64,000 nucleotides of DNA from Paramacrobiotus metropolitanus (Eukaryota; Tardigrada; Eutardigrada; Parachela; Macrobiotidae), in the NCBI RefSeq assembly GCF_019649055.1, contig NW_026570224.1, positions 3,596,001 to 3,660,000 on the forward strand. Direction: 5' to 3'. The notes beneath the pieces were generated by a model. It saw only the letters and a program-made list of their open reading frames with translations. It searched no databases and was not told where the DNA came from. This document shows positions 7,095-23,086 of this stretch, piece after piece. The position numbers were made by a program, and so were the translations under genes. Position 1 is the first letter of the stretch; each line of letters opens with the position of its first letter.

Positions 7095-7600
7095 CAAAAT
7101 ATGAAGAAAAATAGCGTAATTTTTGTTGATAATTTTCGTCTGCTCTCGGTCAGCATGTACACGACCGTTCAAATCGAATATGGAATGCCAACAAAATGCT
7201 TGAAAAGGGCCATGTCACCCAGCGCCACGGACATGATGCTTAGGAGAAGCCGCCTGTCTCAAGGAAGCGTCGACGGGAAACGGATGTGAGTGAGGATGAA
7301 GACGAAGGGGCCAGTGATTACAGCAGCAAGTCAGCTCCCTTGTCGACGTTGATGGCAGGCTGAGGTGGACAGACGCATTATTGAGTGCCTGTGTACGTCG
7401 GTTATTTTTAACGTCGTATAGACGTGCGAGATTGATCGATTGTAATTAAAACTGGGTTGGAACTACAACGTCCTACTACAGCCGGGGGATTTCCCGGCTT
7501 TTTCCTTTATTGTGGCTATTTTGCATGTTTTGGTTTAAGCAAGGAAGGATGATAATTATTTTGGCTTGACCGGTTGTGCAACTTGATTTTTCTTTTCTTA
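7095..7600 (+). pseudogene. Degraded duplicate of the 3' end of the gene at 568-1029
   Basis: The sequence aligns by eye with about 768-1275. Shared stretches include GATAATTTTC, TGCTTGAAAAGGGCC, GTCACCCAGCGC, AAGCGTCGACGGGAA, GAGGATGAAGACGAAG, TACAGCAGCAA, GCTCCCTTGTCGACG and CTGAGGTGGACAGACG, and the similarity continues into the 3' flank (TTTTGGTTTAAGCAAGGAA). The reading frame is broken: several small deletions remove part of the acidic tail, and an early TGA follows the basic cluster. The 5' half of the source exon is absent. It is best read as a 3'-truncated direct duplication now separated from its source by eIF3b. Confidence 0.75.
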
Positions 7601-8100: not shown

Positions 8101-11100
8101 CTAATCCAGACGTTCGTAATTATAACTAAGACTTCCACTGCGTATCGTATGTCCATGGTTGATTACATCGGCATCCTGCTGACCGGCCGTATCATCCTGG
8201 AGATTTTCTTTGCGTGACCGTGTCTCATCGCTGACATTGTAGGGCGACTCCGGCGTTAGGCTGTTGCGCCGTACTTCGAGATCATTATCACTTTTCCCCG
8301 GGAAATCCCGGCTGATCGACTGCTCCATGGAAGGGGAATTAATAAAAAACTCGGCACGCCGTTCGACAGCCGTATCGGCTGTCATAGTATTAGCATCTAA
8401 TCGCTCCCCGCTAAGTGACGGCGGAACGACGCCGGCAATAATCTCAGCCACTTCACTAATCAATTCCGTCGCACGGCCCATCATCTGCGTGACGACACTG
8501 CCCCGGTGGGCGGTGGCGCTGGGCGCCGCCGTCGTGGGCTCCATAATGGGCTCGGGATCGGATTCTAATAGGGTGTCGCGGGCTCGGGTTTCGTCGCTGG
8601 TCATGTAGGGGGATTCTGGGTGAAACTGCTCCGCCGACTGTCCGATTGCGTGGTCATGGAGCCACGCCGCGAGGAAGACGTGGAGCTGACGGTCGGGCCT
8701 GTGTCGGTGGAGTTGGTGGAGAGTTTGCGCATGGAAGAGGGTGCCTCCGGGGACAGCGGAGACTTGCGGGTGTTTGGCGCTGGATTTACGGTTTGCTGAA
8801 ACGCAGTAGAAAATTTACGAATTATGTATCGTGTATAAGGACATAGTTCCGTTAATGCACTAAATTCAAACTGGTCAATTTTTAAATAATTGACGTAAGT
8901 ACTGCAAAATCGATTCCGCTTATAAGGATACACCAAAGGTACTGTATACAATTAGATACATTCTCATAGCATAAAATTATTGAAAACGCCATTGAAAATT
9001 TTATGTGTACTTTTACGTACCACTTTTACTGCAATTTGTGGCACATAATTAATGCCGATGATACTCTGTGATCACTGTGATGGGTTTATGGCACTCCTTT
9101 ATACTGGCAAATTCCTTTTGCTGCCAAGTGCCAACTAATGCCATTTAGGCAGTCACAGAAATCCATTATTAAAAATTACAGTTTATGGTTAGTGATTTTA
9201 GCTTGATGCAGATTTTAGATTTCCAATTTTATTGATTTGCGTTGTAAGTAATAAAAATAGTACACTAGAAAACTGTTTGAAAGATATGAAATTGAGTTAC
9301 CCTTGACCACAAATCCAGAATCTCTAATGCGCCCATTTTGTAAAACAAGTAGGCATATCTATAAAGTAAGTATAAAGTGTACAACATGTGTATCTGCCTA
9401 CAGTACACTCGATTGATTACAAAAACGAAGCTACTTTACGTTGCATGTGTAAGTGTGACGAAAACCGCATCTAACAATGTGTTCGTACTTGTGCTTGCTT
9501 TTGGTAAATAACATATTGACAGTGTGAATTTCAGGCGGAGGGCAGTATTCCCTGCCCACTGTACAATGGCCACTCAAACCACAAGCTTATTATGGGTATT
9601 TGCTGTAGTGACCAATACTTCCCATAATTACACCACAATTCGGCGTTTCCAAACATTCAGTGACCTTCGCGATCGATGACACATTCCAAATGGTTTAAAA
9701 CGCCCTTAATCTTGTTAAATTCGAAAGAAGTGCGAGAAAACTGAACCGCATTGAGTATATATAGACCATACACTTGTCAATTTGCACTAAATTGGCGTTA
9801 AGCGAATTTCGTGCGTCCTCGGCAGGAAGCACTAGTATAAATTGTTGACAACAATTACCGTAATAGATTGTTAAGCTCACACATTCTGTCCATACAAAAC
9901 CAACGTGGCGTGCATTTCTAACGGGCATATTAAGATGAAATCCTGGCTGGAGCTTCCACTACGCTAAGCAAGCGATTGATACTTGCGAGTGATCATGACC
10001 TTGCACACATTAACCATAGCACGAGTATATACATAAGTAACACCTTTCATCAACAAATCTTGAGTTTTTACGAGTCGAGGCTTGTTGCATCTGCTTACCT
10101 TCAATGCGTATAATTTTCTTTACACTGTTATGTCAAAATTTTACTTTCTTGATAACTATTAAGCATTTATTGAATTTTAAGAAAGTCTGCTATATCCCAA
10201 AAACTCCAGTAACAGTTACTTATGCGCCTTAAAGGTTTTGAGCACATTAGAAGTGACCCTGATTTTGTGTATGCATCTGTCATAAATATTTTATGTGCTG
10301 CGCTGTAAATTAGCAGAAATCATCAGAATAAGACATCCGACCGGTCACCGAGGACGTTTTAGCTATATATATAGTTATTACCTTTGATTTACTTACGAGA
10401 CTGAGAGTACAGGAATCATGTAATAAAATATATGAAGTCGCTACTTTTTGAATTAAGTACCCTCATGCGCTGGGGACGGCTTCGATTTTCCGGGCATATA
10501 CAATACTATTATTTTTTGCTCGGGAACACAATCCGGATGCCTTAATCAAATATTCGCTGCTCTATACAGTAGTTCTTTTAAGTGGTTTTGCTGCTGAAAA
10601 GCTAAACTTCAAATGTTCAGCGTCTAGACTGATCACGCTTCCACTAGGCACCAATAATAAATATCTGTGTTTAAAACATGCGCGTGCTAGGCCTGATCAC
10701 TGTAATCAATGTGCAGTAAGCTATCAAAACTAATATTTAATGCAGTAGGAAAGTGGAATTCACGACTGTAGAAGTCCAAGCCAATTTATCTTTTTTACGA
10801 TCACCTCGTCATGCGCTACATATATAGTAATGGAAATGCAAGTGAGCCACTACAGAATTTTTGTTACTTAATTACCTCTGTGTAGAAAAAAGAGCAAAAA
10901 TTTTCAATCACGAGAAGGAAAAAGCGATACTAGAGTCTAAAAACAGACATAATATTATGTAAACTCTAACTGGCTTCTGCATAGTTATGTACAAAGTACT
11001 TATGGTGCGATATCGCCATATCTTAACGTTTTAACATACCTGTATACAAGTATTGCAAAAAGTACTCTAACAATTTATTAAAATTATACTCAACGCAGGA

Positions 11101-14100
11101 ATGTATAAAGATCCATTAATTTAACAAAAAAATGAGAATGCATCCATAACAATAGTATGACTGACATATAAATGAGAATGCATCCATAACAATAGTATGT
11201 CTTCAAACTTTTTTATGTACAGAGTATACAGCGTATAGTATAATTTTCACGGTTTGCAGTACAGACAGAGCAAAAAAATATTTTACGTGCATATTATATA
11301 TATACTGTTGTAGTACAACCATACTACAACTGTTTTGAATAAAAAATACAATTGCGAAGTGCTCAATGAGTAATGTTGATATATCGTTAAATTGTATGCG
11401 TAGCGCAGTCATCTTACCGTTAATGTGGATACGCTGAGTTTTTCTTCGATTATCTCCATTATTTGCCGGTATCAAACAAGAACATCAAGCAGTAAAAGTA
11501 TCCAACTGAATGGTTGGTAAATCTTCGCTATTGATACAACGAGCAGCATAACATCATTTTAAACGCTTACACAAAAGGACACATTATACAATGGATTATA
11601 CGGGATAAGCCGGTAAAACTGTTTTCCCCGGTGTGGAAGACAACCTCGTGCATGCACGGGAATACTATGACGACATTCCGTGGGCCATAATTGCAGAACA
11701 TTTACACAAACGCTGCAACGAGTGCAATCCACTATGTGTGCGATATTGTTGATGGGTGAATGGTTTTTCAGAGGAGACAGCGTTTTCTTAAACTCTCTGC
11801 AGTATATGTGTGCAGTGCAAAAATATCTACGTCGGAGAAAATGTCGATAAGTGCGCCGTGGGAATTTTATTTCCTGGCCCCAAACCGACTGGGATTGCAG
11901 CTGCAGCCTCCGCGCTGAAAAAGTTGCTTTAAGATGTTTGACGACTGCGCGAAGAGAGCGCCATTACCCAGTATTATACCGATAAATGCGGTCCCGTATA
12001 TGTACATATAACAATTTATGTTACGTTTTTTCTCCCTCAAGCTGTCATGGGCAATCGTTTATAATATTGTACGCAAGTAGAGAGGGATTCCGGCGCATTG
12101 TGTAACGATTGCACACGATAAAACGCTGCATCCACTCCGCGCTTTCTCTTTTCTCCTTCTCCCGGCAATGCTATGCGTATCCAGTGTGACGTAATACGAA
12201 ACGTATTTAACTCATGTTGGACAAATGAATTTCCCGTTGATCGATTGTGATCTTTCTGATCACTTCCCATCCCGAGCTGGCCGTCTTTCCGCTGAGGCAT
12301 GTTATTATTTTCTTTGCTAGTGTGTTGCCATCTTCGGAAATCACTCATAAGTATGCGGAGGGATAGGCTGATACACAATACCGCTAGTGTCATCTCGTTT
12401 CACTCTATATTTAAATTTTCTGTGTATTTGCGCGTTTTATTGTAACCAATTGCCAGCACTGGTGTTGCGCCTCGACTTGACAATCAAAGTTTTCGCTCAC
12501 TTAATGGATCACATTAGCCATTTCACTATATGCGTGTACGGGCTATTTCGGGTATACATAAGTGCGATCACCAATTAGTACGGAAAATTAATCCGTAACA
12601 GATGGAAAGCTTCTCATTTCAAGAACTTTAACTGGCGTTCGCATTTGTATTTTGTTGCGCAAAGCAGGAAGGCGCTTCGGTGGTTTTATTAGAGAGCTCA
12701 ACGTCGACAAATTAAAGCAATATGCAGAAACCCTTTAGAACACAACCCGTACATTATGACAGCAATTATATGCAATACATGTGTTATACGTGAGAACTGA
12801 CAGTCATATCGAAAAAATTGTAATAGTTATTGTTAATGACATCGATCGAAAGGGCGTTAAAGGCTCCCGCCAAAAAAAACAGAACTACCGTTACAATTTA
12901 AAAAGTCCGCATATATAGCATAAAGGTTATCATGTGCGCAGTATCATGTATATGTACAATTGCATTAATTCATAATTATATAAATTTAAATAAAGTCAGC
13001 ATTACGGTTTGTTAGTGAAGTCAAACAAATGAACCATGACTGCCGGTTGATGCACGCTGTAATCGCGTCCGACAATCCCGATTGGCGTGGCATTATTCTA
13101 CGCGTTCCAGTTGCCGACAGCTATCGGAAGTGTTGACGCTCGCCGACAGCGATGGGACCATCTTGGCAAAGGCCTCCGCCAAATCCCGTTCGGCATAGGA
13201 ATTGGAGCGACTAGATTCCTGTGCGAGACGGATAGCCAGACCTTCCTCGCGTAAACGATCGAATTCCGCTGATAAAGATAGACGGCGCAGCTCGGCAGCA
13301 TGTTCAAAATAATTACCGGGGTCCATGTTTTATCACTGGCTAATGTTGTGTTAACTACAGAATTAATGTCCGTGTGCGTAAGCGTAATTAAGATAATAAT
13401 ACTGTTGGTGGACGTGCGAAAATTTGCACTAAATCAAATCATTTGTGGAACAGCTCTTTTTAAATCGTTTCGCCCGTCTTTAATTGAACTCTTTCATTTT
13501 CATTTCATTACCATCATGCCAGCTAGCCACACCTAGTGAGTACTTAGTGCACGACCGCGGCACCGGTGAATAATGTGAAATTAATGCTCTACCCTACGAG
13601 GAGGTTGCCGCGCTGTCACTAGCCAATTAGCGAGACTTTCTTATTCAGCCAAATTATTGGCCAACGCTGGCCTGGTTGCTCTCTGTTCCCGGAAATCAGA
13701 CATCACATTACACCGATCAGATATGGAAGCAATTGCAACGGGAAGAATAAACAATGTTGTGTAAGAAGACATTGTACGTGATTTAATAAGTGACCCGGCG
13801 CAAAGGTCGCACAAGTTGACTTGTCCACGCCATGGTCACAGCATGTTGGCATGTGCTTCGTGCAAAAACGCTATGCTAGCTGGAAGCATTGTATGTTGTG
13901 ACTGCTTCAAAAAACTGTCCGTGTCCCAGATTCGATTTTGAGGAATTCTGTTTCGACTCCTGATACAAAGAAGGCACAGAGTGCTTTCCACAAGATTTTC
14001 GAACCTGCTACGCATTCCAAAAATAGCGGTGATAAAGCGCCTCGAACTATACTTTGGTTTCTTTCATCTTTCCGAACAGACTATAGCTTATAAATGACGG

Positions 14101-15989
14101 GAATTTACACTTTGACTATCTTTAATCAAAAGGCCAACTCGTAAAAGATCAGATCAAGGGTCCAAGTTCGAAATGGCGCAATTCCCGGAGAAGATTTAAG
14201 AAAGGTCAAATAGTACAAATTTTACAGGAAAATCAAGCATACGCCTTAGTGTTAAGAATGCTTCTGTTTCGTAGCAGTTTCCGTTCCTACAATCTGAGTT
14301 GGACGCTGGCCATCTTTGTCAGCGACCTGTATATCTCCATGCAAATAAATCCCTAGAAGAACGTACAGCGCGTTTAAGACACATAATAGAAACAATACTC
14401 GTACTCTTCGTATTGTTTCCATTTTTAATAAACAACACATACAAATTACGTTTGAATTTAAAAAGGGCAGTACTAAGCCGCAAAATAATGCAGAAAATGG
14501 AATACGTTTATCAAATGAGTACGAGTTTTAACAGTACCATGAACTTCAAGTTCGGGGCACAGACACTCAGTACTACAAGTCTACAACCAAGTTCTCACAA
14601 ACCCTAACGAATATTTTTGGTTTAAGAAGTACCTGCAGGCGAATTCACCGGAGGTTGGTATGAGCTGATATTAACACCTAGTTCCTGTCCCGGTTGTTTA
14701 GCAGCGCCCTGCGGAAAAACATCCCACAATAAGCGGAGATCAAATTCAGTAAACAAACAATGCTAAAAATAACTCTGGATGGTAATTTCGTGGAGCGGCG
14801 GAAGTACTCGTACAAATCATTAGGCACCACATTTCTCTGAACAATCCAAGGAAGCTCGTATACAAAGAATGACCGATTTCTTAACAAGAGAAACATAGCA
14901 AGTGAGGACTGAAGACTAATCGTCAAAACAGAAATTTCACTTCTATTGATTACGAGCAAATAAAATCCAAAAAAAAATATTTTGGAATTATGGACAGCCA
15001 GGTAGAAGTTCAAAACACAATAAAACGGAAAGAAACCTGTCGCTTCCCAAAAAATTAAAAATACAACCACAGTATCAAAAAATAATTTAGAAAGCAAGTG
15101 TCGAAATCCAAACCAGGCTTTAAAAACTAAATAAATTACCTTCCAAGGCCTGAACTGCGATATTGCGTGAACTTGTGGTAAAATAAACTGTCGGACAATC
15201 ATTTTTCTGAAATATGTTTACCACATCTTCACGCAAACATACCAGAAAGTCGTTCTAGCTCAGATCAAGCATTTTTAAACCCCTGGCCTATTAAAAAAAT
15301 TTCAGTGGACATCGGGACAAACATACCTCGTCCGCTCCCGTGACAATCACTTCACTCTGATCCTCCCGGAGCTCTTTCCCGGGTACAGCCCCGACCACGC
15401 CAGCGACGGTCTGCCACACTCCGGTAGCACGATCCTTCAGCTCCCCCAGAGCAGGCCCCAGAACATCCCCCGCCCGCTCCTTGACATCGCCAATGATTTC
15501 CGATGCTTTGTGGATAACTTGCCCGAGGACGCCTTCCTCGGGATTTTTGGGTTTATCCCCGTTCGGATTCGTCCGGGACGAGTCGGAGTGTGAGGCAGGA
15601 GGATAGGAGGCGGCCTGAACGAGATGGCCGGGCTTCTGTGTGGTTGGTGCTGGGCCCACTACAGGTTCGTGGCCGACACTGTGCAGGTTGACTGGAACCT
15701 GGTGGAAATGGAGAGTGGCTGGAGCAGTGGAGTGTGGCGCAGAAGAGTCCATCTCGATGCCGAGAGATCCGCCCTGGCCGTGCTCAGCCGGCTGGGAATT
15801 CTGAAATCAGTTCCATTTATTGAAATGCTGTACTCTACAGAGATAATGCTAGATCGTAATATAAAAATATGGTATCACAACTGGAAAAACGAGAAGTGCC
15901 GAGTCAAGAAACATTTGACGGTACGGTACGCAAGCGGCAAGCTGTGCTCTACTCTTACGGAGTCTTACCTTATTCTGGTCTGAATCCAT
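8101..15989 (-). CDS. LEA-like hydrophilic amphipathic-helix protein (frameshift in last exon)
   Basis: Exon 1 is 15989-15969 (MDSDQNK, donor GTAAGA). Exon 2 is 15800-15327 (158 codons, donor GTATGT). The proposed last exon is 8795-8101. All joins are phase 0. Exon 2 is Pro/Ser/His-rich and then carries amphipathic 11-residue-like segments (VIHKASEIIGD, VKERAGDVLGP, ALGELKDRATG). The last exon has a related helix (QMMGRATELISEVAE), which supports joining the exons. It also has a Ser/Thr/Arg-rich region and two copies of an SPY-SDETR motif. The last exon is 695 nt and changes frame at about 8618-8620: upstream it reads an S/T/R-rich frame, and downstream a frame ending in YERLD and a stop. One missing base in a C run explains this. 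The composition resembles LEA-type desiccation proteins, but I cannot assign a family. The intron from exon 2 to the last exon is about 6.5 kb, unusually long here. Confidence 0.45.
8796..13092. other. Long AT-rich intron or intergenic stretch
   Basis: No convincing exon is visible. A 28-bp direct repeat (AATGAGAATGCATCCATAAC plus following bases) occurs at 11131 and 11171, with a period of about 40 bp. Around 11600-11760 (+) a short reading frame has a cysteine pattern faintly like a MYND finger but is interrupted; it is discussed as a finding. Confidence 0.4.
13102..13326 (-). CDS. Possible alternative first exon, or a separate 77-residue gene
   Basis: An ATG at 13326 (context AAAACATGG, with two in-frame stops just upstream) opens a charged helical sequence starting MDPGNYFEHAAELRR and continuing through SAEFDRLREEGLAIRLAQES and SYAERDLAEAFAKM. 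It can end at a TAA at 13093-13095 as a 77-residue protein. It can also splice at a weak donor (GTAGAA after 13102) in phase 0, the phase needed by the exon at 8795. It lies inside the long intron of the LEA-like gene on the same strand, so an alternative promoter and first exon is a reasonable inference. The strong helix propensity and Ala/Glu/Arg content fit the surrounding gene. I do not recognise a family. Confidence 0.4.
13327..14677. other. Intron or intergenic, no gene recognised
   Basis: Mixed-composition sequence without a supported ORF on either strand. It lies inside the long intron of the LEA-like gene model. Confidence 0.35.
14678..15202 (-). CDS. Hypothetical multi-pass membrane protein (174 residues)
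   Basis: A single uninterrupted frame runs from an ATG at 15202. The product is strongly hydrophobic and aromatic, with at least three or four candidate membrane segments (around FFDTVVVFLIFWEATGFFPF, IFFFGFYLLVI, LQSSLAMFLLL and VIFSIVCLLNLISAYCGMFF) and a basic end. It is located in the intron of the LEA-like gene on the same strand. I do not recognise a family. A single-exon gene, an exon of a longer membrane protein, or a chance ORF in T-rich sequence are all possible; the length and spaced hydrophobic blocks favour a real protein slightly. Confidence 0.3.
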   Translation of the reverse strand: MIVRQFILPQVHAISQFRPWKVIYLVFKAWFGFRHLLSKLFFDTVVVFLIFWEATGFFPFYCVLNFYLAVHNSKIFFFGFYLLVINRSEISVLTISLQSSLAMFLLLRNRSFFVYELPWIVQRNVVPNDLYEYFRRSTKLPSRVIFSIVCLLNLISAYCGMFFRRALLNNRDRN

Positions 15990-16703
15990 CCTGATGAATT
16001 ACGGCGAAGGAAATCAAGAGTTTCAAAGTGCAGACAACCACACTGCAACAGATTCCCTTTTTCTGTGACAAAATTACAGAAAATTGTGCGAAGAAAATAA
16101 AAATAACTTGGACTGTAGCTGGAAGTTTAGGAAACGTTAAAGTTTTAGGAAACTTCTGATGTGACTAGAACTAGTGAATACAACACGCAGGTGCAGCCTA
16201 ACCAATAGAATTTGCCTATTTTGAATAGAGAACTTTCTTAGCAAATCACAACAAAGGAGGATGAGTCAGACTCTAACAAGCTGGAAAAAGCGAAAGAAAC
16301 TTGGCTAACATCGGCTCCGCTATGGTAAACCGTAAATAGCGTAAAATTTTCAGTTTGAATTCATGACTTTTAGGATTTCCGATTTTATCCAAAGATGTTT
16401 CCTCTCGCTCCTTAGTTTTGGTGTTTATTAGTTTAATCGCAGCAGACTACAAGCCTTATCATTTTGCTGTAGATTACGCAACGTTTAATGCGAAATACCA
16501 CGACGGAGAGTGGAAGGTAAGGACATGAAGAAAGCGACGAAGTCTTCCCGTCCTTGGTTCCTTGGTTGCAGCCGTTTCGCCGCTTGTTTGTTAAAATCAA
16601 AAGCAACATTTGTGATTTATGTGGTACAATGGCTATAAACCAGTGAAGCTTATTTTTACCATAGAAGTCCTGATAAGTTACCCTGTTCGAAGTAAACAAG
16701 AAA
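15990..16703. promoter_or_regulatory. Putative shared 5' region between divergent genes
   Basis: The LEA-like gene starts at 15989 on the minus strand and a hydrophilic ORF starts at 16704 on the plus strand, so the roughly 0.7 kb between them would hold both promoters. I see no clear TATA box or repeated operator, and the call rests on gene layout only. Confidence 0.25.
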
Positions 16704-16916
16704 ATGGAGCATGGAAGTGTTCCGACGCAGAGCGATTATCCGCGAGAAGCTGGGAAAGAATCCAAGGATCCGGAACTGAATCCCAACGACACGCTGTCAT
16801 CGGAGCGGGAAGGTGAACAGTCAGAGAGAAATCAGGACACTTCGGCTGGTTTTGGCTCTAATACTGGACAGCACATCAAGCAGCATACCGAAAGCGCTGG
16901 CAGAAATCCTACATAA
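16704..16916 (+). CDS. Small hydrophilic ORF (70 residues)
   Basis: An ATG in a good context (AGAAAATGG) opens a 70-residue, very hydrophilic, probably disordered product rich in Ser, Glu, Gly, Asn and Gln (for example KESKDPELNPNDTLSSEREG), ending at TAA 16914-16916. Composition is like LEA or other anhydrobiosis-type disordered proteins, and it sits head-to-head with the LEA-like gene at 15989. The stop codon overlaps the left copy of the 10-bp direct repeat that flanks a MITE, so the insertion lies immediately after the coding end and did not change the frame. I cannot assign a family. It may be a first exon or a chance ORF. Confidence 0.35.
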   Translation: MEHGSVPTQSDYPREAGKESKDPELNPNDTLSSEREGEQSERNQDTSAGFGSNTGQHIKQHTESAGRNPT

Positions 16917-16921
16917 ATTCG

Positions 16922-17343
16922 TGTCCATTCATTTTGGCCGCCATTCATTTTGGCCACCGTTCATTTTGGCCACCATTCATTTCGGCCACCACTGATTTGG
17001 TTACCGCGTTCGATTTTCTTAGGTTATTCTTACGGTATTCGTAGGTTTTTTTTTCTTAGGTTGTACATGTACAACCTATAGTATATATGTACAACCTATA
17101 GTATATGTGCTCGTATTTATATGTGTTCTTAGGTTTGCTTATTTTTGTTTTCTTATTTTTGCTTTTTTTATGTTTCGTTTTCAAAAAAAATGTTTGGTCA
17201 TAGCCTTACAAAGTGAGTAGCGAGTGCATGTACGAGTATTAGCTAAAAATCGAAAGCGGTAACAAAATCAGTGGTGGGCGAAATGAATGGTGGCCAAAAT
17301 GAATGGTGGCCAAAATGAACGGTGGCCAAAATGATAGGGCGCC
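16922..17343. mobile_element. Nonautonomous inverted-repeat element (MITE) with internal tandem repeats
   Basis: The element is flanked by the direct repeat CATAAATTCG (16912-16921 and 17344-17353), a likely target-site duplication. Both arms carry tandem copies of a 16-17 bp motif (TTTTGGCCACCATTCA on the left, its complement on the right at about 17280-17335), so the ends fold into a stem. The interior has TTCTTAGG words resembling the satellite spacers at 25.9 and 27.7 kb. No ORF is present. Confidence 0.75.
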
Positions 17344-20240: not shown

Positions 20241-20536
20241 ATTACTACTACAAAAATTACTACCACCAAAATGACTGTGTAAACCTATGGAAAGTTACAG
20301 ATTAAACGCGCAATTTTCAAGGTCTCAACTGCAGTAAAGAAACACCCACAACCTCTCATGTCCTTCATACACTCACAAAATTCTTTCCCCTACTATTATT
20401 ATTCCTTTTATATACACAAATCCGAAATTATTTTAAATCCCAGTATTCCTCTTTCTTATCCCGTACCTGCCGCTACACAATCGAGAGATTGTCCACGCAG
20501 TGTATATTTGATTGGTTACACTCCACATCGTTTACA

Positions 20537-23086
20537 ATGTCGGAAGAACCGATTGAGATTTCTAGCGATGAAGAGACATCTACAAATGATTCTGGTAAAA
20601 AGCGTTTACGTTCTTTTTCTGCAAAAGTTTATAAGCGCGGAGATATATCAAGTGGTTTGAACGATGGAAGCCTGTCAAAACGGCAGACTAGAAAGCGTTC
20701 AAAGGCATGGGAAAACTTCATGGAGATTTACGAGACTGAATCTGGAGGCATCGTTCCATATGTCTGCTGTACTGGATGCAAAGACATTCTCAAGCACACG
20801 TCCGGAAATGGAACGTCTCATTTATCCCGACATGTCAAGGAATCTTGCAGGCCGATTGTGCAGAAGAACCAGCCTAAAATCACTTCCTACGCTCAAAGCG
20901 AAAAGCCTCCCGCTGTTTCCATTACTGCCAAAACTCTGATCACGGAGAGCTGTGTTCGTTTTGTAGCAGAGGTAAGTTGAACATTTAAAAGTGCTTGACT
21001 GTTTTATTGCAATAATGCTTTACGAGGCACCGCAGATTTTTGCTAACTGCTAACATCTGATATCACTTCAGCAATCAGTAACGTTTTAATTTTTTAATTT
21101 ATTACGTGATTCATGGCGTTATTACTTTTATTTTTTTTACACTAGTCAATTTCCTAACGAATTTCACGCTAAATTGCAGGACATGCGATCGTTCGAGTCT
21201 GTGAAGGGAAATGGATTTATGCATCTGGTTCAAGCAGCCATCAATATTGGCCACCAATATGGACCTGTTTCCGCAGTCGAGCTGCTACCCCATTCGACAA
21301 CTGTGAGCCGAAATGTCGAAAGCACAGCCAAAAAATTGAGGGCCGATTTATTTCCCAAAATTGCTGATATCCTGCGTGCTAATGGTGGCGCTGTTGCCTT
21401 CGATTTCTGGACGGATCCGTGCAACAGCGTGCATTATATGGGCATGACAGCTCACTATATCTCTGACTGGAAGCTGATGGACTGTGTCGTATTTGTTTCA
21501 TGCTACGATCCTTCGGTTAAGAAACGGCTGTCAATGTGAGAAAGTTTCTGGCGGAAAAGCTTTTGCTGCTGGGTCTTAAAGAGAGTGAATGCACCGAAGT
21601 GACATTCGTCATTGACGCTGGAGCGAATATGATAGCTGCACTGAAGCTGGCCAATTATCAAACTCTCTCCAGAATTTTGTGCGCTGGGCACTTACTCAAT
21701 CGTGTGTCCAAGAATGCTGTTAAGAATATGCCGGAAGAGCACCAGATGGTCAACGAGGTGTTACAGATGTCTAAGGCTCTTGTTCGATATATCAAGGCAA
21801 CAACACTACAACACATGCTGCCCCGCAAGGTGAAACAGAAGGTGGACACGCGGTGGAACACTGTGATTGACATGCTGGATTCACATGCTGTATACGATGA
21901 CATTCAGGTACAAAACCACAAATGACACTGGACCTGTGTAGTGTGCACTTTAATATTATCCCGCTTTAATACAGCACCTGTAAGTAAACAAGTGTGCATA
22001 GTTGCTCTAGTACAGTACATATGACAGACTAGCATAAGGAAATAAACTATAATAATTATAAGAAGTATACAAGTACATACAAATTAAGAACTAAAAATAA
22101 AGACTCAGTTCTTAGCGACTTGTTTCTTAACTCTTTCTAATTATATGTAATATTTGCATTTATTTTCAGTATATGTACTTGTATACTTATAGTTATACTA
22201 CATAGTACACATTACACAACAATAGCTTGTAAAGGGACAGTGATTCCGAAATGGCACTGTTTAGTTTGTACTGTACAGTGTACACCCATTATAATTATGT
22301 TCATTACAGGTCCTGTTGGTCGAACGAAAGGAAGACGAGATGTTACCTGAGCCACGTGAATTTTTGGAGCAATTAGTTGAGCTCTTGCGGCCGGTAAAAC
22401 AAGCTACTGAAGAATTGTCTGCAAGCAAAACTCCAACGTTACATTTGGTACTTCCATGGCGCAAAATGTTGGAGGGTATTTATTCGGCGGCCGGCGCAGG
22501 TGATGAAGCTCCGGCTATATTTGCCTTGCGTAAGATGATGCTGCGTTATTTGCGAGAGAAATTCGTGATACTAGACATTCATAACATTGCTACGTTTCTT
22601 AATCCCCGGATGAGAACGCTGAAAATGTTGACCGAATCTGAGAAAAAGGCCGTGCTTGCCCGGGTACGTGCTCTACTGCCGGTTGTGATCAGTGACAAAA
22701 GCACCCAAAAGATGAAAGCAGGTACAACGAGTAAAGCAAGCAAGTTTGCAGACTTCGAAGACGATCTGGCCATCGATCAGGATAACGACGAAGTTGGTTC
22801 CTACCTTAAGACATCTGTGCCGCCTAAATCAGCTGATGAGGATCAAGGATGGCTACTTAAATTTTGGAAGGACAAAGAAGGGGAGCTACCGCGGCTGGCG
22901 AAGTTGGCCAAGCAAGTTCTGCCGGTATCGGCGACTAGTACTGTTTGTGAGCGCACGTTTAGTCTGGCTGGATTTGTGATTGATGATCGGCGTAATAGTC
23001 TGAAGCCGGAAAAGGTTGATGATCTGTTATTTTTAAAAAGTTACTATAATAATGCGTCGGCTGATGTTTTAGATCAGTCTTTCTGA
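20537..23086 (+). CDS. hAT transposase with N-terminal BED zinc finger (one-base frameshift in exon 2)
   Basis: Exons are 20537-20971, 21180-21907 and 22310-23086; start ATG MSEEPIEISSDEE. A BED-type finger follows a basic stretch: about residues 50-105 have VCCTGC, then HLSRHVKESC as the second ligand pair. The middle has the RNase-H-like core (FDFWTDP, FVIDAGANM, CAGHLLNRV), and the end has the hAT dimerisation region (LAKQVLPVSATSTVCERTFSLAG, with RRNSLKPEKVDDLLFL). Exon 2 changes frame at about 21520-21540: one frame ends in SM-stop and the downstream frame continues from VNVRKFLAEK. The exon is 728 nt; one more base would close the frame and give about 646 residues. So the copy is either inactivated or shows a homopolymer assembly error in the run of A at about 21520. 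Confidence 0.85.

Follow-up and report, generated by a model that had tools for sequence, protein, structure and literature searches.

A hydrophilic tardigrade gene and its paralogue share a short predicted amphipathic helix resembling group-3 LEA repeats

The locus at 8101–15989 in the DNA of Paramacrobiotus metropolitanus raises the question of whether it encodes a hydrophilic protein whose 11-residue amphipathic segments recall group-3 LEA repeats, and whether such a protein could take part in stress protection. Tardigrades depend mainly on lineage-specific disordered proteins and less on canonical LEA proteins (PMC9224920). We analyzed the window, a stretch of 64,000 nucleotides (C4:3596001-3660000), and searched the whole genome (169.8 Mb, 533 contigs) with single-sequence queries, the first pass being loose and limited, so that absence of further copies is no proof. 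The preliminary description made a stress role conditional on an anhydrobiotic organism, and the organism is indeed of such a lineage, a eutardigrade whose genome carries at least 12 CAHS-like loci (best 69–72% identity to an approximate CAHS core query).

At the 5′ end of the locus, we identified a gene, termed gene A, with the following exons.

15969–15989, minus strand: exon 1 of gene A, ATG at 15989, MDSDQNK, donor AAG/GTAAGA in phase 0; sequence read directly, splice site putative
15327–15800, minus strand: exon 2 of gene A, 158 codons, acceptor TTTCAG/AAT, donor GAG/GTATGT, codon score 59.7 bits

The codon score was trained on the codon usage of this genome's other genes, and the null sequences, Markov-generated from adjacent non-coding DNA, always scored below 13 bits. 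Exon 2 comprises an N block (HGxGGxLG...SSAP...LHFHQV...HS) and an 11-mer helix, both conserved. Its comparison with the whole genome returned one further match, on contig C40 (E 3.3e-28, 51% identity, frame intact), which has a short upstream exon, MEGSKPTREEIHSV, with a GT donor. Two blocks are shared in the alignment of gene A with this paralogue, HGxGGxLGxxxxSSAPxxxAPAxLHFHQVxxxxHS and DKPKNPxEGVLxQVxxxASEIxxDxxxRAGxxxxxAxGxLxxRAxGVWxTVAG...GKEL, and each of them, used as a separate genome query, found gene A and the C40 copy alone in a limited search that is no proof of absence. Over 144 aligned codons, the copies differ at 43 first, 42 second and 98 third positions, with pS of 0.72, pN of 0.33, dS of ~2.3, dN of ~0.43 and dN/dS of ~0.18. 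The codon-position pattern and the dN/dS value therefore indicate a real protein under purifying selection. With its GT/AG boundaries, strong codon signal and conserved paralogue, exon 2 bears out the preliminary description in that a real gene lies here. The prokaryote genome contigs searched held no relative of gene A and no sign of transfer.

According to the gene models and predictions, the products of both copies are ~165–200 residues long, hydrophilic, mostly disordered and devoid of a recognisable signal peptide. Exon 2 of gene A encodes no cysteine and has a GRAVY of -0.5, milder than the -0.94 of RvLEAM (PMC4326354). Proline and glycine together make up 22% of exon 2 in gene A and 17% in the paralogue, versus 3–9% in the LEA-like genes of this genome.

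The resemblance to LEA proteins is confined to one segment of exon 2.

15381–15533, minus strand: LEA-like amphipathic helix, EGVLGQVIHKASEIIGDVKERAGDVLGPALGELKDRATGVWQTVAGVVGAV, supported by hydrophobic moment, 11-mer consensus and AF2

Three segments had been likened to LEA group 3 in spacing and composition, and the likeness holds for two of them, VIHKASEIIGD and VKERAGDVLGP, which directly adjoin each other within exon 2 (minus strand, ~15.5 kb) at 11-residue spacing. The third, QMMGRATELISEVAE, is encoded on the minus strand at ~8.47 kb, 7 kb downstream of these 11-mers, in another exon (exon B) whose 11-mer score does not exceed that of shuffles (P 0.19), and exon B was ruled out as a LEA-like part by this test. 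Scored with the consensus that PMC4326354 prints for group-3 LEA proteins, the best 11-mer triple reaches 18/27 in gene A (21/27 with an insert allowed, the units scoring 6/9, 8/9 and 7/9) and 19/27 in the paralogue, and in neither copy was the triple score matched by any of 4000 composition-matched shuffles of the same helix segment. Specifically, the paralogue units RASEIYEDYRD, RAGEAIGDLRE and RASGVWHTVAG are spaced exactly 11 residues apart, while gene A carries a 4-residue insert, about one helical turn, ahead of its third unit. Strong 11-mers (at least 7/9) number two per copy, compared with 6–14 in four LEA-like genes of this genome and three in a fifth (L021). The hydrophobic moment of gene A has its optimum at 98 degrees, that is 11 residues per 3 turns (P 0.0014–0.0016), and that of the paralogue is marginal (98.2 degrees, P 0.046). 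AF2 models show a single long helix at exon 2 residues 87–137 in gene A (helix pLDDT ~64) and 90–134 in the paralogue, with almost all of the remainder as coil; their confidence is low, with mean pLDDT of 51 and 53 from an input alignment of two rows. The prediction thus amounts to a lone amphipathic segment of 45–51 residues between disordered flanks. Since any amphipathic helix scores somewhat on the group-3 consensus, these data show resemblance to LEA proteins, not descent from them.

Does gene A belong to a known family? Pfam, NCBIfam and PDB sequence searches assigned it to none, in agreement with the preliminary description; matches to CsbD (E 0.12), DUF883 (E 0.2), and DnaJ, L25 and other PDB entries (E 0.2–3.8) were taken as chance. 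The LEA_4 model (PF02987) matched neither gene A at E up to 10 nor the paralogue at E up to 1, and neither copy appeared among the matches of a genome-wide PF02987 search, which speaks against membership in LEA group 3. Like the group-3 proteins RvLEAM and HeLEA1, gene A has contiguous consensus 11-mers (three units), a hydrophilic composition, a low-confidence long AF2 helix and 11/3 amphipathicity, the last marginal in the paralogue; unlike them, it has only three 11-mers, Pro/Gly/His-rich flanks and an additional conserved N block. The AF2 picture of both copies, one long helix with the rest as low-confidence coil, is similar to that reported for HeLEA1 itself (PMC10808001). At least five genes in this genome (L021-L025, on C29, C18, C4 and C3) resemble LEA_4 under the Pfam cut-off, and both copies show weak local similarity to these genes above shuffles, strongest between gene A and L025 and present also with L021. 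We describe gene A as LEA-like over a short stretch, and not as a LEA protein, because of the missing LEA_4 match and a profile comparison probability of only 5%. Two of the five genes, L024 and L025, have signal-peptide-like N termini, a sequence feature that suggests secreted LEA-like proteins in this tardigrade.

The comparison with LEA, CAHS, SAHS and MAHS families proposed in the preliminary description was likewise negative for CAHS and SAHS. Gene A shares with CAHS proteins its tardigrade origin, hydrophilicity and a predicted helix, but lacks the CAHS core, and alignment scores of both copies against three CAHS proteins of this genome are at shuffle level. SAHS features are also absent, the low-confidence models having no strands and exon 1 (MDSDQNK) no signal-like stretch. 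MAHS, as described in PMC4326354, resembles gene A in lacking LEA homology and in having a conserved amphipathic helix region within a hydrophilic protein, and differs in its long N-terminal presequence, which the gene A model does not have.

On this basis, we tentatively propose that gene A encodes a minor, lineage-restricted disordered protein whose action resembles that of short LEA or MAHS proteins, a reading to which we give somewhat less than an even chance. The helix segment of both proteins would be disordered in dilute solution, would fold into an amphipathic 11/3 helix as water is lost or when it meets a membrane or the surface of a partner, and would then shield that surface, as proposed for short group-3 LEA or MAHS helices. 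Helix formation on drying or at a surface is described for disordered LEA proteins of group 3, among them HeLEA1 of tardigrades (PMC10808001), and a similar mechanism has been proposed for the non-LEA MAHS (PMC4326354). For gene A, we infer the disorder-to-helix switch, its target, the protective role and a cytosolic location. The reading is favoured by purifying selection, the 98-degree moment, the 11-mers, the AF2 helix, the LEA-like similarity, the lack of cysteine, the negative GRAVY and the CAHS-rich genome. Against it stand the mere three or so 11-mers per protein, the high Pro+Gly content, the GRAVY milder than that of RvLEAM, the marginal moment of the paralogue, the low AF2 confidence, and an N block conserved about as strongly as the helix, although a pure shield could do without it. 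Judged from sequence, gene A is a plausible stress-protection gene.

The same helix could instead be a lipid-surface or membrane-binding 11-mer helix, as in perilipin, synuclein or apolipoproteins, within an ordinary lipid or organelle protein that has no role in drying. We regard this as less probable and on balance unlikely. Such a helix would fit the 11/3 periodicity and a face made up of bulky aliphatic and aromatic residues (V, I, L, W), with an AGVVGAV end, that exceeds the usual Ala/Thr face of LEA proteins in hydrophobicity, and Apolipoprotein and ApoLp-III models also give scores for this genome's LEA-like genes; however, the Pfam models of Perilipin, Apolipoprotein and synuclein match neither gene A (E up to 10) nor the paralogue (E up to 1).

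The N block directs attention to another alternative, namely a disordered adaptor or scaffold of ordinary cell biology, in which a partner would be bound by the SSAP...LHFHQV block, with the helix serving as a coiled coil or docking helix. Conservation of the N block about equal to that of the helix, and its occurrence in these two genes alone within the limited genome search, are what such a protein would display, yet neither solved structures nor domain families yielded a match and the helix optimum in gene A is an 11-mer, not a heptad; we consider this explanation unlikely.

It has also been suggested, in the preliminary description, that the whole of 8101–15989 is one gene. Exon 2 would then be spliced across 6.5 kb to exon B, and a single protein would carry LEA-like segments at either end. 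The features downstream of exon 2 are as follows.

14625–14714, minus strand: possible terminal exon of gene A, GAAKQPGQELGVNISSYQPPVNSPAGTS and stop, phase-compatible acceptor TTTTTCCGCAG; uncertain
13093–13326, minus strand: ORF D, 77 aa, MDPGNYFEHAAELRRL...RQLERVE and stop, in-frame stop just before its ATG, codon score 27.4
8101–8795, minus strand: exon B, QMMGRATELISEVAE and two PESPYxxSDETRxR repeats, acceptor GTTTCAG/CAAACC, codon score 83.7

The one-gene model draws on exon 2 ending in phase 0 and the acceptor at 8795 opening the matching frame, on the strong codon signal of exon B, and on a local similarity between gene A and exon B slightly above shuffles (P 0.01). However, ORF D, with its own start and stop, sits inside the presumed intron, the paralogue locus gave no match to the 8.1–8.8 kb exon B, the resemblance between exon B and the paralogue is absent (P 0.23), the repeat of exon B is common to an unrelated gene on C1, and the codon signal along exon B reveals a reading-frame switch near 8620–8680, which likely stems from a long-read assembly error, possibly an indel. 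Because exon B lies far off with its own repeat and frame switch, and ORF D lies between, 8101–15989 probably comprises two or three genes, and we find a single gene improbable. The longer form of the repeat, PESPYxxSDETRxRxENLxxD, is present in four copies in the ORF on C1 (L011:4131-4646, GRAVY -1.76) and in two in exon B (8101–8620); the PESPYxxSDETRxR repeat has no match in Pfam or NCBIfam.

ORF D is probably a separate gene or a first exon between gene A and exon B, and looks separate because a stop immediately precedes its ATG, it ends in a stop of its own and its codons are coding-like; no second copy was found in the genome. Alignment scores of gene A with ORF D, and with ORF H described below, are at chance. 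The 3′ end of gene A may lie in the short exon at 14714–14625, to which the codon score gives no support, in part of ORF D, or in exon B. Read-through beyond exon 2 reaches a stop at 15291 in gene A, near which no polyadenylation-type AATAAA signal was seen; in the C40 copy it reaches a stop at 7392 (in L003) with AATAAA ~40 nt further, which is a possible 3′ end of that copy. A candidate N-block repeat at 14.6 kb (ELGVNISS...) had been picked from hundreds of ORFs and lost its significance after that count.

The hydrophilic ORF described as lying head-to-head with the gene does exist.

16704–16916, plus strand: ORF H, 70 aa, hydrophilic, GRAVY -1.67, codon score 23.3 over 16680–16826 (~50 codons)

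Its start codon is 714 bp from that of gene A, no other copies were found in the genome, and its alignment with the C40 paralogue is marginal (P 0.036). The idea of a joint stress locus is not supported, gene A and ORF H having no sequence similarity to each other. Directly 3′ of the ORF H stop lies a foldback element (16925–17343) with 89-nt inverted arms of 16-nt repeats. Further along the window, transposase-like coding segments, hAT-like by eye, are present on the plus strand at 20306–23083. Near-identical coding-like segments with KPxVSRKRRRExDxSEDEDEGASxYSSK occur on the plus strand at 565–1023 and 7244–7339, on both sides of a gene at ~2.7–5.6 kb that we take to be eIF3b-like.

Finally, a true but divergent group-3 LEA (LEA_4) gene whose ancestors were this genome's LEA-like genes, secreted or cytosolic, is very improbable, for although RASEIYEDYRDRAGEA aligns to RASELYDDAKEAAGDA of L025, the similarity to L025 exceeds register-preserving shuffles (P 0.0025 for gene A, 0.015 for the C40 copy) and that of the C40 copy to L021 does so too (P 0.0025), the closest similarity is limited to ~17 residues, PF02987 finds neither copy and the profile-profile probability is 5%.

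Returning to the LEA- or MAHS-like reading, a more specific form of it can be put forward as a speculation that is rather unlikely to hold: gene A and its paralogue would be the two members of an undescribed tardigrade family, in which an N-terminal binding block and a minimal three-unit LEA-type helix form an independently evolved minimal desiccation protectant with a specific client. New families of tardigrade disordered proteins are still emerging. If gene A is instead an ordinary adaptor or lipid-surface protein, 11-mer likeness alone would be poor evidence for a stress role. If the proposal is true, gene A would offer a simple test of how few repeats protect and of whether such proteins have specific clients.
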